Assembly: GCA_027923505.1 (NCBI GenBank)
Contig: BROI01000002.1
Coordinates: forward strand, 992,001 to 1,056,000
Source of the DNA: Mayamaea pseudoterrestris
Lineage: Eukaryota; Bacillariophyta; Bacillariophyceae; Sellaphorales; Sellaphoraceae
Direction of reading: 5' to 3'
DNA length: 64,000 nucleotides
Shown: positions 43,936-53,078 of the stretch, one piece after another
Layout of the letters: each line of letters starts with the position of its first letter
How positions within the stretch are numbered: the stretch's first letter is position 1
The notes under the pieces: model-generated
Database searches by the model: none
Told to the model about the DNA's origin: nothing
Seen by the model: the letters and a program-made list of their open reading frames with translations, nothing else
Position numbers and translations under genes: made by a program

Positions 43936-44236
43936 TTAGGAATTCGGACGAGGCAAAGATGACGAAGGAATGCAAATTGACGATGATGCAACCTGCCTGC
44001 AGTCGCGCTCATCGCTTGCGGCGCGGCGCGGGTCGTGACTTTGATGACGTCGGACCGCGACTAGCTGCGACACAAAAAATCGCGTCGCCGCAAAACCCAC
44101 CACGGCAAAACGGTGTGAGGTCATTCACCAGACCAAATCACTCGCACTCGTACCTACTTCTTGTACGAGCGGCGACAAGGCTTATCAATGTCGTGAGGAA
44201 GAAGAGACGACGAGATTACGAGTAGTCTGCTCGCAA
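43936..44236. other. Upstream region of the BTB gene
   Basis: About 300 bp with short chance frames on both strands. It is the presumed promoter and 5' leader of the BTB gene; no element was recognised. Confidence 0.25.
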
Positions 44237-45349
44237 ATGACGGAGCCTTCCGCGACATTGTCGGCATCTCGGCGTAACGACAACAAAAACGAAAGCAATC
44301 TACCTGTAGTGAGCGAGAGACTATCGGCCGAAGGCACAGTCAATCTAGTATCAAATCACCAATTACCGGTATATAGCAAGAATGCTAGAGGAAGTGACAT
44401 TTTGACACTGGACATTGGTGGAGAAACGAGTGTCAAGACTCGTCGCAGCACCTTGACGTGCGTGGCGAATTCGGAGCTTGCCAAATTGTTTAGCGGACTA
44501 TGGGACGACTCGCCACTACGAGACGACCAAGGCCGTTTCTTCATCGACTGCGAACCGGAAATATTCATGCCACTTTTGAAGTTTTTACGCTGTTTCAATC
44601 TGGCAAAGATTACTGAGTTGGAGCGCGACTATACGCCGCCCATGACGCCGTCCTTTGAGAATGCGCGCGACGAAGCAGCTTTTCGTGCCATGGTGGACCA
44701 TTTTGGCTTGACCAACATTTTTTACAACTACGAGATTTACAAGTTTGGTCAAACCTTTGTCACATGGTACAATCGTCAGCTGGTCTCTCGAGACTGCTCC
44801 ATTTTTGATTGTTCGCTCCGACTCGGTGGTTCCATCCCCGCCTACAGCTCATGCTTTGCTCTTGATCGACCAGATGTTTCGTATGGAGCGTCTTGCCATT
44901 CGCGACCAGTGCAATCGTTTGATGTTGTGCTTAGTCAGCCATCGTCTTCGCATTACGCCATTGGTTGGATTCGTCAAAACCAAGTTCTTGCCGAGACTGA
45001 GAAAAACTTTGACGCCATGACGAGTCGGATCACCTTTGTCACAAAGTACATGCAGTTGCGCTACTACGACCGAGACGGAAAGTATTGTCACTCCAAAGGG
45101 GTCACAAAGTTGCTCGCTTCAGACTGTGTCCTTCGCTGCAGCAAGGACCGTTATACCAACGAGTTTCAGTGGTTTCTCAATGGTATGTTGGTCGCTGAGA
45201 CCAGCAAGGCCCTCGCATATGGCACGGAGCAGATGGATCGGAACGTTTGCCGCCTTGGCTGGAGTGTTCCGGACGACAATTACGAAATGATTCCCTATGT
45301 AGAAGTCAAATCGGGCACGAGCCGCTTCTCGGCTTTGGAGTTGGCGTAA
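44237..45349 (+). CDS. BTB/POZ (T1/KCTD-type) domain protein
   Basis: A 370-residue single exon. After 50 polar residues comes SDILTLDIGGETSVKTRRST, then LTCVANSELAKLFSG...LRDDQGRFFIDCEPEIFMPL and LKFLR. This is the order I-x-L-D-V-G-G-x-x-F-x-T...L......DxxGxxFIDRDPxxFxxILxFLR of the potassium-channel tetramerisation type BTB domain. The remaining 220 residues (from FGLTNIFYNYEIYKFGQTFV) have a beta-rich pattern with many Tyr, Phe and Arg and include IGWIRQNQVLAETEKNFDAM and EFQWFLNGMLVAETSKAL, perhaps a SPRY/TLD-like sandwich; I cannot assign it. KCTD-like proteins oligomerise and often act as Cullin-3 adaptors; that role is only inferred. Confidence 0.72.
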   Translation: MTEPSATLSASRRNDNKNESNLPVVSERLSAEGTVNLVSNHQLPVYSKNARGSDILTLDIGGETSVKTRRSTLTCVANSELAKLFSGLWDDSPLRDDQGRFFIDCEPEIFMPLLKFLRCFNLAKITELERDYTPPMTPSFENARDEAAFRAMVDHFGLTNIFYNYEIYKFGQTFVTWYNRQLVSRDCSIFDCSLRLGGSIPAYSSCFALDRPDVSYGASCHSRPVQSFDVVLSQPSSSHYAIGWIRQNQVLAETEKNFDAMTSRITFVTKYMQLRYYDRDGKYCHSKGVTKLLASDCVLRCSKDRYTNEFQWFLNGMLVAETSKALAYGTEQMDRNVCRLGWSVPDDNYEMIPYVEVKSGTSRFSALELA

Positions 45350-45756: not shown

Positions 45757-46101
45757 ATGGCATTTGCATCTCCACCCGTTCTATTCCGGTCCATCCTCCG
45801 AGCTCACAAGAGGCATCTTCCAACAGACCTCCGATCGCTTGGGGATGTCTATGTGAAGCAAGAGTTTCGATTGCACAAAACAGCAAAGCCAGAGCAAGCG
45901 CTCCAATTCATGAACGAATGGTCACACTACCTTGACCAACTGTCCATGACGGCACGCGCAAGAGACAGTGTCCGAGTCGGAGCCGTCGATAATGACGTAT
46001 TTGATTTTGGAAAAAACTTGCCACGCGATGTCGAGTTGTCGGAGGAGCAGTTGCAGCAGCTGGAGACGCTCCGCGAGGAAGCAGCCAAGGCGCGCAAATG
46101 A
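45757..46101 (+). CDS. SDHAF3: Succinate dehydrogenase assembly factor 3 (ACN9, LYR family)
   Basis: 114 residues, ATG in a good context (CACCATGGC). LFRSILRAHKRHLPTDLRSL followed by GDVYVKQEFRLHKT matches the Complex1_LYR-like ACN9 family (L-Y-R-x-I-L-R-x-H..LP..LR.LGD.YVK.EFR.H); the LYR tripeptide itself is LFR here. QALQFMNEWSHYLDQL is the second conserved helix. The factor protects the iron-sulfur subunit of mitochondrial complex II during assembly. It is small and the N-terminus serves as targeting sequence. Confidence 0.88.
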   Translation: MAFASPPVLFRSILRAHKRHLPTDLRSLGDVYVKQEFRLHKTAKPEQALQFMNEWSHYLDQLSMTARARDSVRVGAVDNDVFDFGKNLPRDVELSEEQLQQLETLREEAAKARK

Positions 46102-46944: not shown

Positions 46945-49900
46945 CTAGATACTGCCACTCGAATTTTCACTCAAGAGTGTCAAACCATCTTTGATCCATG
47001 GGGAACGCAGAGCCTGCGATACAGTCAAACGTTCAGTCGGGTCTGTTGTCAGTAAGCCACGGACGAAGGTCTGCGCGTTGGCCGTCAATTTCCCCCAATA
47101 CTTCTCGATCAAATCCAATTTTCCGCTTCGGATCTGATCCATACGCGCGTCAAAAGCTTCAAAGTTGATCCCAAAGGGGGGATGTCCATTCAGAATCAAG
47201 AAAATGCAGACTCCGAAGCTCCACATGTCACACTGGACGCCATATTTCGGATAGACATTCAACATTTCTGATGCGACAGGAACCAATTTTGTTATGAGAC
47301 AGTAAACACAACGACGATAGACAGATGCTGATGACGATTACGAACCTGGGCTAATATAGTCGACCTCTCCACACAGAGTCGTTAGGGAATTTGAAGAATC
47401 AACAACCTTAGCAAACGAGAAGTCTGAAATCTTGACTTGCGTAACATTATCCACAGCAGCACAAATGAGAGAGGAAGCCGAGAGACTGCGAATGGCAATA
47501 TTTCGTTCGTGACAATACGCGATACCCTGCAAGCCAGATATCGCCAATTTGCAACCGTCTGTGTCCGAATAGCATCGCTCTTTTTTGAGATGATCAAACA
47601 CTTGAAAATTTTGACGGCCAGATCATGACCGAGTATACATAATCGGTTTCCAGAAAAACATCACTTGTCGGACAATTCCAGATACGTCAATGTCAGATAG
47701 CTTTTTCAAGCATTGCATTTCGGTGTGCATGCCCGTCGCATCAGTCCCCTTCAATGCGTTACGTTTAAAGCGTTTGACGACAAAAATCTCCTTCGGCTCC
47801 TTCGTAATGGCATCCTTCCTTGTCATCTTGCACTCGCACAGAACAAACGCTCCGCCTTCAACAACTTTCGTGGCCTCATCCATGCTATACAACTCATTGA
47901 AACGTTTGACGTTGGCCACAACGGGAGCGGCAGTTTTGCGTCGGATGCGCTCAAAATCCACTTCCCCACGCGGATTGGCTTTCATCGATTGTTGTGCCAC
48001 TGATAAGTTATTGACAGCCAAAGCTTCCATCTCCATCTTGAACCAATTGCACTCCAAAGCTTGTTTAGCCGTCGATCGATTTGCAAGTCTGTCCAAAAGC
48101 TTGCCGAGTAAACGGCGGACCTCTTTGGAACAACCGTTCGGCATGCGAAAGTTGCCCATGATAACCTTCTTTTCAATGTCATGATGTGTTGCCCCTCCGA
48201 AAGCCATGTCGCCGCTGAGCATCCAATATATGACCGCACCGGCACTGAAACAGTCTGCGAGCTCGTTATAGGCTCCTTCGTACACTTCTGCAGGCATGAC
48301 GAACAATTAAAGAGGAAAGTGTGAGTGCAGAAAAGCGTTAAGTATTTCAACACAAAGCGACGCAGTCGAATTGTGCTTACCAGGAGCGATGAAGCCAGAG
48401 GTACCACAAAGAGTAACCAAACAGGACGGCTCTGGTACTACCTTCGCAGATCCTAAGCTTGCGACCTTGATCGACGTTAAGTCGTCCTTTTTCTGAAGTA
48501 ATACTGTGCAGAAGAGGAAAAGACATGGTAAGCTACTTACCAAAAGCAGAAGCAATGTATTGAAACCAGCCTCCACATACTTGCTGCGAAGAACGAAATG
48601 GACGATTGAGTGACTGTTAAAGGTTGCCTAACTATCACAACGGCGTCAAAACCATTAGACACGCACCCGTTATTGGCTTGATGTCTCGATGCGCTATCTT
48701 TTCAGCGTGCATATATTCTAAGGCTAAAAACATCCCCTTCATCGCCTCTCGCGCGTCGCTCTCCGAGTATTCAGCCTTATCGCAGATGGATTTACCCAAA
48801 TCGCTTGCCGCCAATTCCATGACAAGGTACGGGTGCAAACAGTCGAAGCGACAATCGATTAGGCGTATAATATGCTGGCAACCACTGCATTGGCGCAAAG
48901 ATGCACACTCTCGACGCAAGGCGGCGACGTCGTTGAGGGCGACGGTCTGTTCATTATCGTATCCAAAATGGACTTTTACAGCATACAACTTTTTTGTCTG
49001 ATCAATCTCACATTCAAATACTGCGCCAAATCCCCCTACACCAAGCTTCTTGCGCTCGGTTTTGATGCATTTTTCGATGGCATCCTTGTTGACAAGACCG
49101 TCTCCCGAAGTCTGTTGCCGTTCTTGCTCATCAGTACCGCTAATGCTCTTCTGCCCCTGATTTATCAAAACGCCGATAAAGTTCTCGTACAACTGCTCGA
49201 GTCGCTCCTTGCTGCATGGCTCGCGCTTGCACTTCTCTAGCGTCGCCGTGCGGAGGTCAATGTTGAAAGTATTCGCTCCAAGATCAGCGTCCTTCTCTTT
49301 TATAAATTGGTGATTGAGCGCCATTATCGCGGTCATGCGTCGCTTGGGGTTGGCCATGAGAAGACCGGCCAAAAAAGGTTTGACATGTTTTGAGCAAGAA
49401 TCAAAGATCGTCGGATTGAACTTTAAATAGTTGCCCTTATACGTGTTCTCCAAAACCGTTTCGTCGTCATGGTCGCCGGTCGCCTGATATCCAGCAATTA
49501 GCACATATGCAACACTGCCCATGCTGTAGATGTCGCATTTCATATCGTATGTGCGGACATTCTGGAATTCAAGCATTTCCTGAAAGCAAACAAGAGTGCG
49601 AACGATTAAGAGTCATAATGTCAGTTGCATTCTCGCACCTTGTCAGTTACATTGGAAAACGTACCGGCGCCAGAAATCCAGGAACACCGCAAAGTGTTCC
49701 CCGTTTGCACTCGCGGTGACTGACAATGGAGGAACCAAAGCTTGCAAGTCTGACGTGCAACGAGTTGGACCCAGTCGCAGTCACTAGCAAACTCTCCATG
49801 TAAATGTTTCGATGATACATATTTCTAAACGAAACGAACGTGCGTGAGCCATTGCTTTCTCTCGACAATTGCAGGAATGAGACTCATGGAGCTGCATCGT

Positions 49901-50468
49901 TAATTCAACTTACCGATCGTGCATGAACTTTAGACCAGTCAAAGCGCCTCGAATGGCGTCACGAGCTAGCTTTTCCGAAATGTTTGGATGGGCCAAACCG
50001 TAGTCGATAAGATTTCCGTCAGGCATCCACTCAGTGAAAACGTGGCAAAACGCCCCCACTTGCTGCGTAAACAAAAATTGCACAATGTTCGTTCCAGCTT
50101 GCAACTGCTCCAGGTGCAAAAAGAGCATCATGATAAGTGGGAGTGAGACATCGATGGACGGTTATCGTCTCGTCACCGACTTGTACTTACGTTTTGAAGA
50201 TTCGTGACGTTGGCCATTAATCCTTGTCAGAGTTTGCGCTCTTCTTGTTGACGCGAATCTTCTTGATTGCGCATTTAAACCCGTCTACTGCACCGACGGC
50301 AAAATAAACGTTTCCGTACGTTGACTTTTCCTTTAATTCGTATTTCTGTTTCGCATGATCGATAGGGGGCTTGTGGTGAGCAGCCGAGGCCGAGGTGGAG
50401 CTATCATCATGCGACGCCGGTTCCGCCACAGCCGCTGCTGGAAGGCTTGGGAGTTTCTCATCGGCCAT
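46945..50468 (-). CDS. Gene with three tandem protein-kinase domains, probably pseudokinase and partly broken
   Basis: Exons inferred from frame and GT-AG signals: 50468..about 50191, 50104..49914, 49824..49665, 49579..48663, 48583..48541, 48492..48381, 48287..47346, 47267..46945; introns 48-93 nt. Together they encode three complete kinase folds in a row, each described separately. No domain keeps both catalytic aspartates: domain 1 has HRN and ASFG, domain 2 HRD but ASLG, domain 3 lacks HRD but has SDFS. Two breaks are seen: exon 1 runs into TAA at 50217-50219 two bases out of frame with the continuing MANVTNLQN, and TGA at 47623-47625 interrupts domain 3 in frame. The boundary after HRDIKP (48663 or 48667) is uncertain. 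It is either a decaying pseudogene, a misassembled locus, or two shorter genes. Function unknown; a scaffold pseudokinase is possible. Confidence 0.6.
46960..47925 (-). other. Kinase domain 3 of the triple-kinase gene (HRD lost, hinge broken)
   Basis: Starts NVKRFNELYSMDEATKVVEG then GAFVLCECK; the Gly loop is degenerate but the Lys of FVVKRFKR is kept. After GIVRQVMFFW the frame reads KPIMYTRS and stops (TGA), then resumes QNFQVFDHLKKERCYSD in the same frame. The catalytic loop is CHERNIAIRSLSASSLI, without HRD. The DFG region is ISDFSFAKV, keeping Asp-Phe. The C-lobe after the intron at 47268-47345 is well preserved: ISPEMLNVYPKYGVQCDMWS, FGVCIFLILNGHPPFG, DPTERLTVSQALRSPWIKDG. Confidence 0.7.
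48030..49075 (-). other. Kinase domain 2 of the triple-kinase gene (DFG lost)
   Basis: It has a textbook nucleotide site: KKLGVGGFGAVFECEI, LYAVKVHF, an alpha-C Glu in RRECASLRQC and the catalytic loop IAHRDIKP. The next segment is spliced through a 43-nt exon (about KYVEAGFNTLLLL) and then KKDDLTSIKVASLGSAKVV, where DFG is replaced by SLG. The 48-nt stretch 48493-48540 between them is in frame and hydrophobic if retained. It is probably a very short intron (GTAAGT...CTTCAG). The C-lobe starts GFIAPEVYEGAYNELADCFS and continues to ECNWFKME. Confidence 0.7.
49300..50345 (-). other. Kinase domain 1 of the triple-kinase gene (degenerate)
   Basis: Begins KYELKEKSTYGNVYFAVGAV: the Gly-rich loop has lost its first glycines, leaving YGNVY. 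The ATP lysine is present (FKCAIKKI). The catalytic loop spliced across the 49913-49825 intron reads LKFMHDRNMYHRNIYMESLL, so HRDxKPEN has become HRNIYMES: both the catalytic Asp and the loop Lys are lost. The metal-binding DFG is ASFG (VRLASFGSS). The C-lobe is intact from GVPGFLAPEMLEF through DIYSMGSVAYVLIAGY to RRMTAIMALNHQF. This predicts no phosphotransfer. Confidence 0.75.
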
Positions 50469-51000: not shown

Positions 51001-53078
51001 AGGTACTTATGCGCCGCGCCGCGCCGCGCACCTCACGAATTCACAAGGACGCTGCGCCTGGTCTTGACCATGACGCAACTCTGAAGCATACCACTCGCAC
51101 GTTCTACACCACAAGTGCGGCGATGCATTGTAAAGTCAACTGCGTCGTTACTGCAATGGACGAGATTGTAGGTTTCAGTCGCTGCTCAAACACAATATCA
51201 GCGTCTCGCGTCTCACGTCTCACGGAATCTTAATCTTGCACATTGCACTGCTTGCTGCCTGTCATCAACTTAAAACGAAATGCGTGGCAGCTTTTCGGAG
51301 TATGTACATTGAAACATCATGCACAAAAGAAACTTAGGCAGTCCTTTGCAATAGCATTACAATAGCATCGTGGAAGGATATGTTTGTTGTCAGTATCGGA
51401 CGCCCGCCGGCTTATTGCGATTACGTTCATTGCGAATTGCGGCACCAAGCATTAAACACCCAAGAAACAACGAGAAGAAGCGACATCACAACTAAACCAT
51501 TCCGTTCAAGTTTCGGCAAGCAGCGTTTCCATCTGCGCAAAAGGATGTGACACATGATGTCGAGCCGAATTGCACCTAACACGACAATTGCACTTGGAAA
51601 CTACCGGTAATCTCACAAGTCAGTGTCAACCGTCGATGATGCCATGCTGCGCATTCAACGTTGCTTATTGCCTATAGTTTGGCCCATTGCTTGCCACCCG
51701 GGCCTCTCTTGCGGTCACCATTATCTCGCACCGGCTTCGACGAACGTCGTACTCAGTGAAGCTTGTCGGTACCATTGCATTCGACCCGTCACGGTCTTTC
51801 GAAAGTCATTCAATCTGCGCATGTCGGCAAAACATCAGAGTTTAGTTTCGAGAAAGCAGTTTTCATTTGAAACCTGCATGATGATGCGTAACAATGATAT
51901 TGAATGTTTGCTTTGTCATCAATCGTCAATTTAACAAGCAAGTGAGGCCAATACAAAACGTCGTAGAACATCAGTCACAACGTTTAGATAGCAAAATCTC
52001 TACACTTTTATCGCTTGGAAAACTTTCGACCTTCCGATGGCCGCTCAGAAAGGTGTAGACTTGATTGGAACGAGGCTGGGCCAAGGGCCAATCCCAAGCC
52101 CCGGCATCATCGCAACATATCGCAATCGATGCCCTTGCTGTTCTTCAGACGTTTCTATACGGTCCCAAGTTAAACAGCGCTAGGAATGATCATGTGTGGA
52201 TTGCATGCGGTCATTTTAAGCTCAAGGTGTGATCATGTGGAGTGTGGTCGACCCAAGCAAGACCAGCAAACATGCGTGGCGATGGATTTGCGTCGTCCGT
52301 GAACCGTGAACCCCATGTCCATGAGTCACCATCTCCTTTGGTTCATAATGCGAAGCTCAACGGCTACAATAAGACTGGTATTGACCCCTTCATCCGCGTT
52401 GATATGTTATGATGTCGAGTTGTCAAGCTTACAATGGGGCATCCATGTCTTTCACCATTGACTGTGACGAGCAAGCGCTCACATGGCAAGCTGTGCGCGC
52501 AAAGCCACATGATAATGTTCGTCAAAAGGCAATAGTACGAAACGAGTGCCAGTGTCAATTACGTCATTAGGCAATAGTACGAAACGAGTGCCAGTGAAAA
52601 CTGCGTCATAAGGCAATAGTATGAAACGAGTGCCAGTGTCAATTACGTCATAAGGCTTTAGTATGAAACGAGTGCCAGTGAAAACTACGTCAAAATATGA
52701 GATTGTACGAAACGAGTGCCAGTGAAAACTGCGTCACAAGGCAATACTACGAAACGAGTGCCAGTGAAAACTGCGTCACAAGGCTATACTACGAAACGAG
52801 TGCCAGTGAAAGCAGCGTCAGAAGGCAATACTACGAAACGAGTGCCAGTGTCAATTGCGTCATAAGGCAATAGTATGAAACGAGTTTTAGTGTCAATTCT
52901 AAATGAGTACAATAGCCTTTAAGATGCTGATTGTCGCTTTGGCTTGCCACCCTTCGACGCACACTTCCAATCCCACACGTTTTCATTTCCTAGACCTTCG
53001 ATCGACATTACTACTATTGCATCAACTTCAGCCATGGTGATCTACGATTACTCGAAATTGCGCTGCACGTGAAAGTCA
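51001..53078. other. Gene-poor stretch with minisatellite cluster C
   Basis: About 2 kb without a convincing gene. TACCGGTA occurs at 51602-51609 and the cluster C minisatellite at 52528-52900. Frames such as 51623-51934 plus show no domain and a chance-like composition. No tRNA or other RNA gene was recognised by eye. Confidence 0.45.
52528..52900 (+). repeat. 42-nt minisatellite, cluster C
   Basis: Nine units, about 41-44 nt apart, with the core GAAACGAGTGCCAGTG (the last has GAGTTTTAG). Two unit types are mixed: those continuing TGTCAATTACGTCA and those continuing TGAAAACTGCGTCA. Orientation is the same as in clusters A and B. Confidence 0.95.

Follow-up and report, generated by a model that had tools for sequence, protein, structure and literature searches.

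We analyzed a window of 64,000 nucleotides from Mayamaea pseudoterrestris, a diatom of the order Sellaphorales (contig BROI01000002.1, here contig C2:992001-1056000). Its minus strand, between window positions 46945 and 50468, carries a degenerate gene for three tandem protein kinase domains, K1, K2, and K3, which we call MpW and which was delimited by exon-wise Pfam matches, a splice model, and a family profile. GT/AG splicing gave seven exons, from 50468 down to 46945. Exon 1 (50191 to 50468) encodes the N terminus and the K1 N-lobe; it gave no Pfam match on its own, and an intact paralog aligns on both sides of a frame change within it. Exon 2 (49914 to 50104), the middle of K1, matched the kinase family PF00069 at 2e-4 and is also found in an NCBI protein record from this species, P0001. 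Exon 3 (49665 to 49824) encodes the K1 catalytic loop (HRN) and an SFG motif and was weak in Pfam when taken alone (0.058), as was one other small exon (0.044). Exon 4 (48667 to 49579) covers the K1 C-lobe, a linker, and the K2 N-lobe up to HRDIKPIT and matched at 9.3e-34. Exon 5 (48381 to 48503) runs from the SLG motif of K2 to its APE motif, with an acceptor picked by comparison with the paralog. Exon 6 (47346 to 48287) holds the K2 C-lobe (4.8e-9), a second linker, and the K3 N-lobe up to SPE, and exon 7 (46945 to 47267) holds the K3 C-lobe and a TAG stop codon. The K3 pieces matched at 1.6e-11 and, for exon 7, 4.3e-14. A chance or spurious kinase match is excluded by exon-wise E values reaching 9e-34.

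When the exons were joined and read through, the family profile recognized domains at residues 46 to 303, 386 to 638, and 714 to 962, with 171, 190, and 203 bits, respectively, and each domain has its own APE-type motif (LAPEM, IAPEV, and ISPEM). A sequence-only reading of the window had proposed three successive kinase domains at this position, each with such a motif, and both points held. It had also counted eight exons, one more than in our model. In K2, our first model, with a 48-nucleotide intron and a small exon, was replaced after comparison with the paralog by a single intron of 163 nucleotides (48666 to 48504); this boundary is provisional, as the NCBI record implies a different K2 join with an additional small exon.

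That record, MPSEU_000150000, was the closest database match, a protein of 694 amino acids with 97% identity over 71% of the query. It starts within the presumed intron 1 of MpW and ends before a TGA at 47625 to 47623. A record that spans only part of the locus would fit three neighboring single-kinase genes, or an artifact of prediction, in place of one gene. However, the K1-K2 junction falls inside a single open exon (49579 to 48667), as does the K2-K3 junction (48287 to 47346), so the linkage of the domains is independent of splice prediction. Moreover, three domains stand in one protein in the paralog and in many relatives, eight of them derived from transcripts, which refutes separate genes for the family and makes them extremely improbable at this locus. 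Apart from its own record, the search with MpW returned only five weaker kinase-domain proteins, but since scoring was limited to the 7996 candidates ranked highest for words in common, the absence of further relatives says little. A phage collection contained no match.

A three-kinase family in pennate diatoms

The M. pseudoterrestris genome (30.6 Mb in 41 contigs) was searched for relatives and yielded an intact paralog with the same K1-K2-K3 order on contig C1 (2301266 to 2297569, minus strand; locus L029), having 1,069 open codons in six exons. Its motifs are HRDLKPEN and DFG in K1, HRDIKPEN and DFG in K2, and IRN and DFS in K3. Compared by eye, its five introns correspond to five of the six MpW introns, with a one-base phase shift in two cases; the extra MpW intron lies in K3.

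A database search with this paralog gave 5,360 matches, and all family counts here rest on the 120 that were listed. Together with six proteins from the MpW search and the two Mayamaea models, 128 proteins were examined, of which 70 showed three kinase domains, 43 two, and 15 one, although many of the shorter ones may be fragments. The named three-domain proteins came from Fistulifera solaris, Nitzschia inconspicua, Cylindrotheca closterium, C. fusiformis, a Nitzschia species, and a Bacillariaceae metagenome-assembled genome, with further sources identified by taxid as Synedropsis cf. recta, Fragilariopsis kerguelensis, and Pseudo-nitzschia heimii. Eight of the 59 proteins P0007 to P0065 (one of the 59 is truncated) originate from MMETSP transcripts (P0011, P0036, P0037, P0044, P0051, P0052, P0064, and P0065). 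No three-domain form from a centric diatom or from Phaeodactylum was named among the 120 listed of 5,360 matches, and most of the listed ones carry no species name. A search with only the linkers of a Synedropsis protein found the protein itself and two relatives already known. The sequence-only reading had suggested looking for the same domain order in related diatoms, and the paralog, the named pennate species, and the eight MMETSP-derived proteins supply it. It had named orthologs always split into single-domain genes as contrary evidence, and the relatives instead carry three domains in one protein. The rarity that it attributed to three kinases in a row was overstated, as the architecture recurs through pennate diatoms. 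A literature search covering mostly open-access papers returned no description of a diatom three-kinase family, and a word search of an article on diatom Ca2+ signaling (PMC11085791) gave no occurrence of "kinase."

Catalytic residues were counted in an alignment of 68 of the 120 listed proteins plus the two Mayamaea models (70 rows), from which eight rows were dropped (both Mayamaea models, four divergent proteins, and two truncated ones) to leave 62. K1 and K2 have the Lys, the HRD Asp, and the DFG Asp in 58 of the 62 rows. In K3, the catalytic Asp is replaced by Asn in 50 rows, and the Lys, the αC Glu, and the DFG Asp are each present in all 62. Replacement of the catalytic Asp by Asn is the change used for making dead kinases. 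Mean identity was 0.61 for K3 versus 0.65 for K1 and 0.65 for K2, so that K3 is almost as well conserved as the other two domains.

The closest solved structures for all three domains, searched with intact relatives, were CASK, CaMKI, CaMKII, and CDPK, which places these domains nearest to the CaMK group. An AlphaFold2 model of the Fistulifera protein P0018, built with 38 sequences, had a mean predicted local distance difference test (pLDDT) score of 80.4 and a predicted template modeling (pTM) score of 0.58; it showed three well-predicted kinase folds, low-confidence linkers, and a long C-terminal helix, and its best fold matches were CaMKII and other CaMK-group kinases. In the corresponding model of P0001 (mean pLDDT, 69.3; pTM, 0.44), the C-terminal part of K1 and K2 were best predicted, with no usable interface between domains. 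The public name of P0018 is ribosomal protein S6 kinase alpha-1/2/3/6, and RSK chains do occur among the solved-structure matches, so that the three-kinase gene might be taken for a member of the RSK family. RSK proteins combine an AGC-type N-terminal kinase with a CaMK-type C-terminal kinase. Against such membership, which we regard as highly improbable, the top matches are the CaMK-group proteins named above and the three diatom domains group together in a tree. With no AGC-type domain and all three domains of the CaMK type, RSK membership was ruled out.

In a FastTree phylogeny of 102 domains, rooted at the midpoint, the diatom K1, K2, and K3 domains formed one clade each, and the two-domain proteins from Ectocarpus, Ascophyllum, Tribonema, and Pythium fell outside these clades. 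Such position-specific clades indicate that the tripling is old. The short proteins P0093 and P0100 were placed in the K2 and K3 clades and look like partial members. Three other three-domain proteins, P0098, P0101, and P0109, each with one weak domain, branched outside the K1 to K3 clades, so that triple arrangements have apparently evolved repeatedly. In P0109, a kinesin motor (1.4e-21) precedes the kinases, and in P0098, a TB2/DP1/HVA22 domain separates the second kinase from the third. A predicted Nitzschia protein of 1,418 amino acids, P0073, shows five separate kinase stretches and perhaps represents four domains or a fused gene model.

The stretches that follow K1, K2, and K3 (tails T1, T2, and T3) recognized one another in profile comparisons from which ten T3 tails no longer than 20 residues were left out. 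The T1 profile matched 35 of 65 T2 and 29 of 55 T3 tails, the T2 profile matched 57 of 65 T1 and 29 of 55 T3 tails, and the T3 profile matched 41 of 65 T1 and 26 of 65 T2 tails; shuffled controls gave 0. At 38 bits, the T3 profile also matched the tail of L033, a CaMK-like kinase with one domain that the same genome encodes; others gave 4 to 10 bits. The tails of the three domains are thus related, and the repeated unit was probably a kinase plus its tail.

Probable decay of the window copy

With profiles built without Mayamaea sequences, each MpW domain scored best against the profile of its own position, K1 at 175 bits (other classes at most 126), K2 at 180 (at most 155), and K3 at 217 (at most 166), so that MpW shows the K1-K2-K3 class order of the family. 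In a maximum-likelihood tree of 25 members, MpW was sister to the intact C1 copy (91%), and both grouped with P0007 (99%). The MpW branch measured 2.25 substitutions per site versus 0.08 to 0.43 for the other 24 members, making it 5 to 28 times longer.

The ATP-site Lys is retained in all three MpW domains. K1 has HRN instead of HRD and SFG instead of DFG and has lost both Asp residues; it also lacks the αC Glu, which is less certain as the position adjoins a frame change. K2 keeps HRD, with Thr in place of the following Asn (HRDIKPIT), and has lost the DFG Asp in its SLG motif. K3 has IRS, with Ser replacing the catalytic Asp, and DFS, and it retains the Lys, the Glu, and the DFG Asp. MpW thus fails to show the full set of Lys, HRD Asp, and DFG Asp in K1 and K2 that is present in the paralog and in 58 of 62 relatives, whereas its K3 follows the family pattern of a domain that usually lacks the catalytic Asp and keeps the other three residues. 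The reading frame changes near 50220 in exon 1, with an in-frame TAA at 50219 to 50217, and again near 47665 and near 47612 in exon 6, with the in-frame TGA at 47625 to 47623 between them. Because of these frame changes and stops, MpW as assembled does not encode one uninterrupted three-domain protein. That the locus is itself a working three-kinase gene is not supported, since catalytic residues are missing in all three domains and the frame is broken in the assembly.

The divergence of MpW still bears the mark of coding. MpW and the intact copy share 931 codons, in which the first, second, and third positions differ by 0.45, 0.40, and 0.64, respectively. The frame-consistent pieces, which had been chosen as open frames matching relatives, contain no stop codon, versus 25 to 48 in neutral simulations with all divergence on one branch and 12 to 38 with half of it there (100 simulations per scenario, with uniform substitutions and no indels). 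The lack of stops and the third-position excess imply that MpW coded under constraint through much of its divergence, while catalytic residues were being lost. Neutral decay as the entire history was ruled out by the same simulations, in which at least 12 stops arose.

These observations can also be read to mean that MpW is still alive, its lesions being assembly errors, and that it is expressed as a catalytically dead protein that regulates the intact kinase or is its dominant-negative partner. The stop-free pieces, for which at least 12 stops were simulated, the prominence of third-position differences, and the retained ATP-site Lys in all three domains agree with this. If expressed, the MpW protein would have three pseudokinase domains and no active one, and it would act toward the intact kinase as a decoy or as a dominant-negative scaffold. 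Yet the assembly shows frame changes with stops at two places, and the intact C1 copy has no such break over 1,069 codons. A third three-kinase member, L030 (C5:1043314-1040444, minus strand), likewise has in-frame stops and is apparently decaying, so that decay fits a pattern in this genome. In L030, the K1 profile gave the best scores for the first pieces (91 and 36 bits, versus no more than 78 and 26 for other classes) and the K3 profile for the last pieces (142 and 38 bits, versus no more than 114 and 26), and the K2 N-lobe piece scored nearly equally with the K1 and K2 profiles (112 and 115). On balance, we consider a live triple pseudokinase unlikely.

We favor instead, at a probability of roughly 0.7, the reading that MpW arose by duplication of a three-kinase gene, conserved in pennate diatoms, whose K3 is usually a pseudokinase, and that this copy has evolved fast and now has a broken frame. 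Catalytic residues would have disappeared from each of its domains at a time when MpW still coded for protein, the frame lesions would have come afterward, and most likely MpW makes no working three-domain kinase today. Judged by its sequence, it is best classed as a degenerate derivative of the pennate-diatom family. Several points weigh against this reading or parts of it. The frame lesions could be assembly errors, and where MpW falls in the tree may be biased by its very long branch. The clades of the domain tree were read without branch support values. The strict basic pattern of a regulatory helix was found in only 21, 5, and 13 of 65 tails, the last MpW tail is short, and the model of P0018 (pTM, 0.58) offers no usable interface between domains. 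Finally, K3 keeps its catalytic Asp in 12 of the 62 rows and hence is not always a pseudokinase. Eleven of these 12 proteins form a clade typified by P0048, in which DFS replaces DFG in K1, and the twelfth, P0064, lies elsewhere in the tree; because the proteins with Asp branch from within those with Asn, the ancestral residue was probably Asn in this sample, rooted at the midpoint.

Other kinases in the genome resemble the third domain. In the domain tree, MpW K3 lay at the base of the K3 clade beside L031 and L037, long-branched kinases of the same genome. L037 (C1:577807-578964, minus strand) is an open frame of 386 amino acids with a single K3-type degenerate kinase (IRN and DLS; 2.8e-35), best matched by the K3 profile at 181 bits. 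In L031 (C18:592749-594281, plus strand), a single open frame combines the last part of a kinesin motor domain (2.4e-14) and heptad-like repeats with a degenerate kinase of the K3 type (4.1e-32; motifs ICN and DLS), a possible kinesin-pseudokinase fusion; a K1-like piece lies nearby on the opposite strand (595044 to 595898). The conserved three-kinase enzyme could conceivably have given rise, in Mayamaea, to a burst of rapidly evolving descendants deprived of catalytic residues, namely, MpW, L030, L037, and L031, a scenario that we consider unlikely. A two-domain CaMK-like gene, L032 (C22:422570-425170, plus strand), was fitted better by the stramenopile two-domain profiles D1 and D2 than by K1 to K3. 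Pairs of kinase matches with identical scores occur about 12 kb apart on contig C24 (416891 to 417643 and 429387 to 430139) and about 20 kb apart on C2 (503743 to 504261 and 523582 to 524100) and are perhaps recent local duplications. Elsewhere in the window, there are a tandem array of a 42-bp unit in about 8.7 copies (52520 to 52885), a small plus-strand open frame with an LYR-type domain (45757 to 46101; Complex1_LYR_2, 1.1e-15), and a plus-strand stop-to-stop frame of 433 amino acids with a BTB_2 match (44048 to 45349; 1.1e-6).

Proposed mechanism and comparison with known systems

By sequence, the intact protein consists of three CaMK-type modules, each a kinase followed by a C-terminal tail resembling a CaMK regulatory segment. 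The three kinase folds are predicted as separate units joined by flexible linkers. K1 and K2 look active, and K3 would usually be a pseudokinase that keeps the ATP/Mg-binding residues. In CaMKs, the regulatory segment keeps the active site blocked as long as calmodulin is not bound, and pseudokinase domains control the kinases next to them, as they do beside the active domains of JAKs. Given this anatomy, a Ca2+/calmodulin-type input may relieve the tails, whereupon K1 and K2 could phosphorylate substrates or each other. K3 might act in cis as a regulator that binds ATP and does not transfer phosphate, an ATP-sensing scaffold or allosteric switch by analogy with JAK. The family would thus offer a natural experiment in how a pseudokinase with ATP-site residues controls kinases in the same chain, and the clade of 11 proteins whose K3 has the Asp and whose K1 reads DFS makes the division of labor directly testable. 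In MpW, the three-kinase architecture has shed catalytic residues from each domain during a period of coding constraint.

The CaMK group is the nearest known system, sharing the top structure and fold matches, and the diatom tails are related to that of the CaMK-like kinase L033. To our knowledge, CaMK-group kinases have one kinase domain per chain; the diatom proteins differ in having three, the third usually without the catalytic Asp. RSK proteins share a CaMK-type C-terminal domain with the diatom family, which has three CaMK-type domains and no AGC-type domain that we could see. JAK and GCN2 place a kinase beside a pseudokinase in one chain, and the diatom proteins likewise combine degenerate and active domains; they differ in that the pseudokinase is C-terminal and the domains number three, and a Pfam scan of five diatom relatives other than P0001 found only kinase-type families, with no FERM, SH2, RWD, or HisRS-like domain. 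Plant tandem kinase proteins have domains of the receptor-like-kinase type. WTK1/Yr15 (PMC6170490) is a plant tandem kinase-pseudokinase, which the diatom proteins resemble in tandem arrangement, their domains being of the CaMK type instead. A study of Phytophthora infestans (PMC3019232) describes three dual-kinase genes, PITG_04344, PITG_05862, and PITG_07317, which likewise have tandem kinase domains of one family in a stramenopile, two and not three. Two-domain relatives also occurred among our listed matches (P0112, P0114, P0119, P0121, and P0124), and the two-domain proteins of brown algae, Tribonema, and Pythium are tandem like the diatom family and fall outside the K1, K2, and K3 clades. 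Tandem kinase-pseudokinase proteins are already known; the one described here is a three-module, CaMK-type form that has been kept across pennate diatoms.

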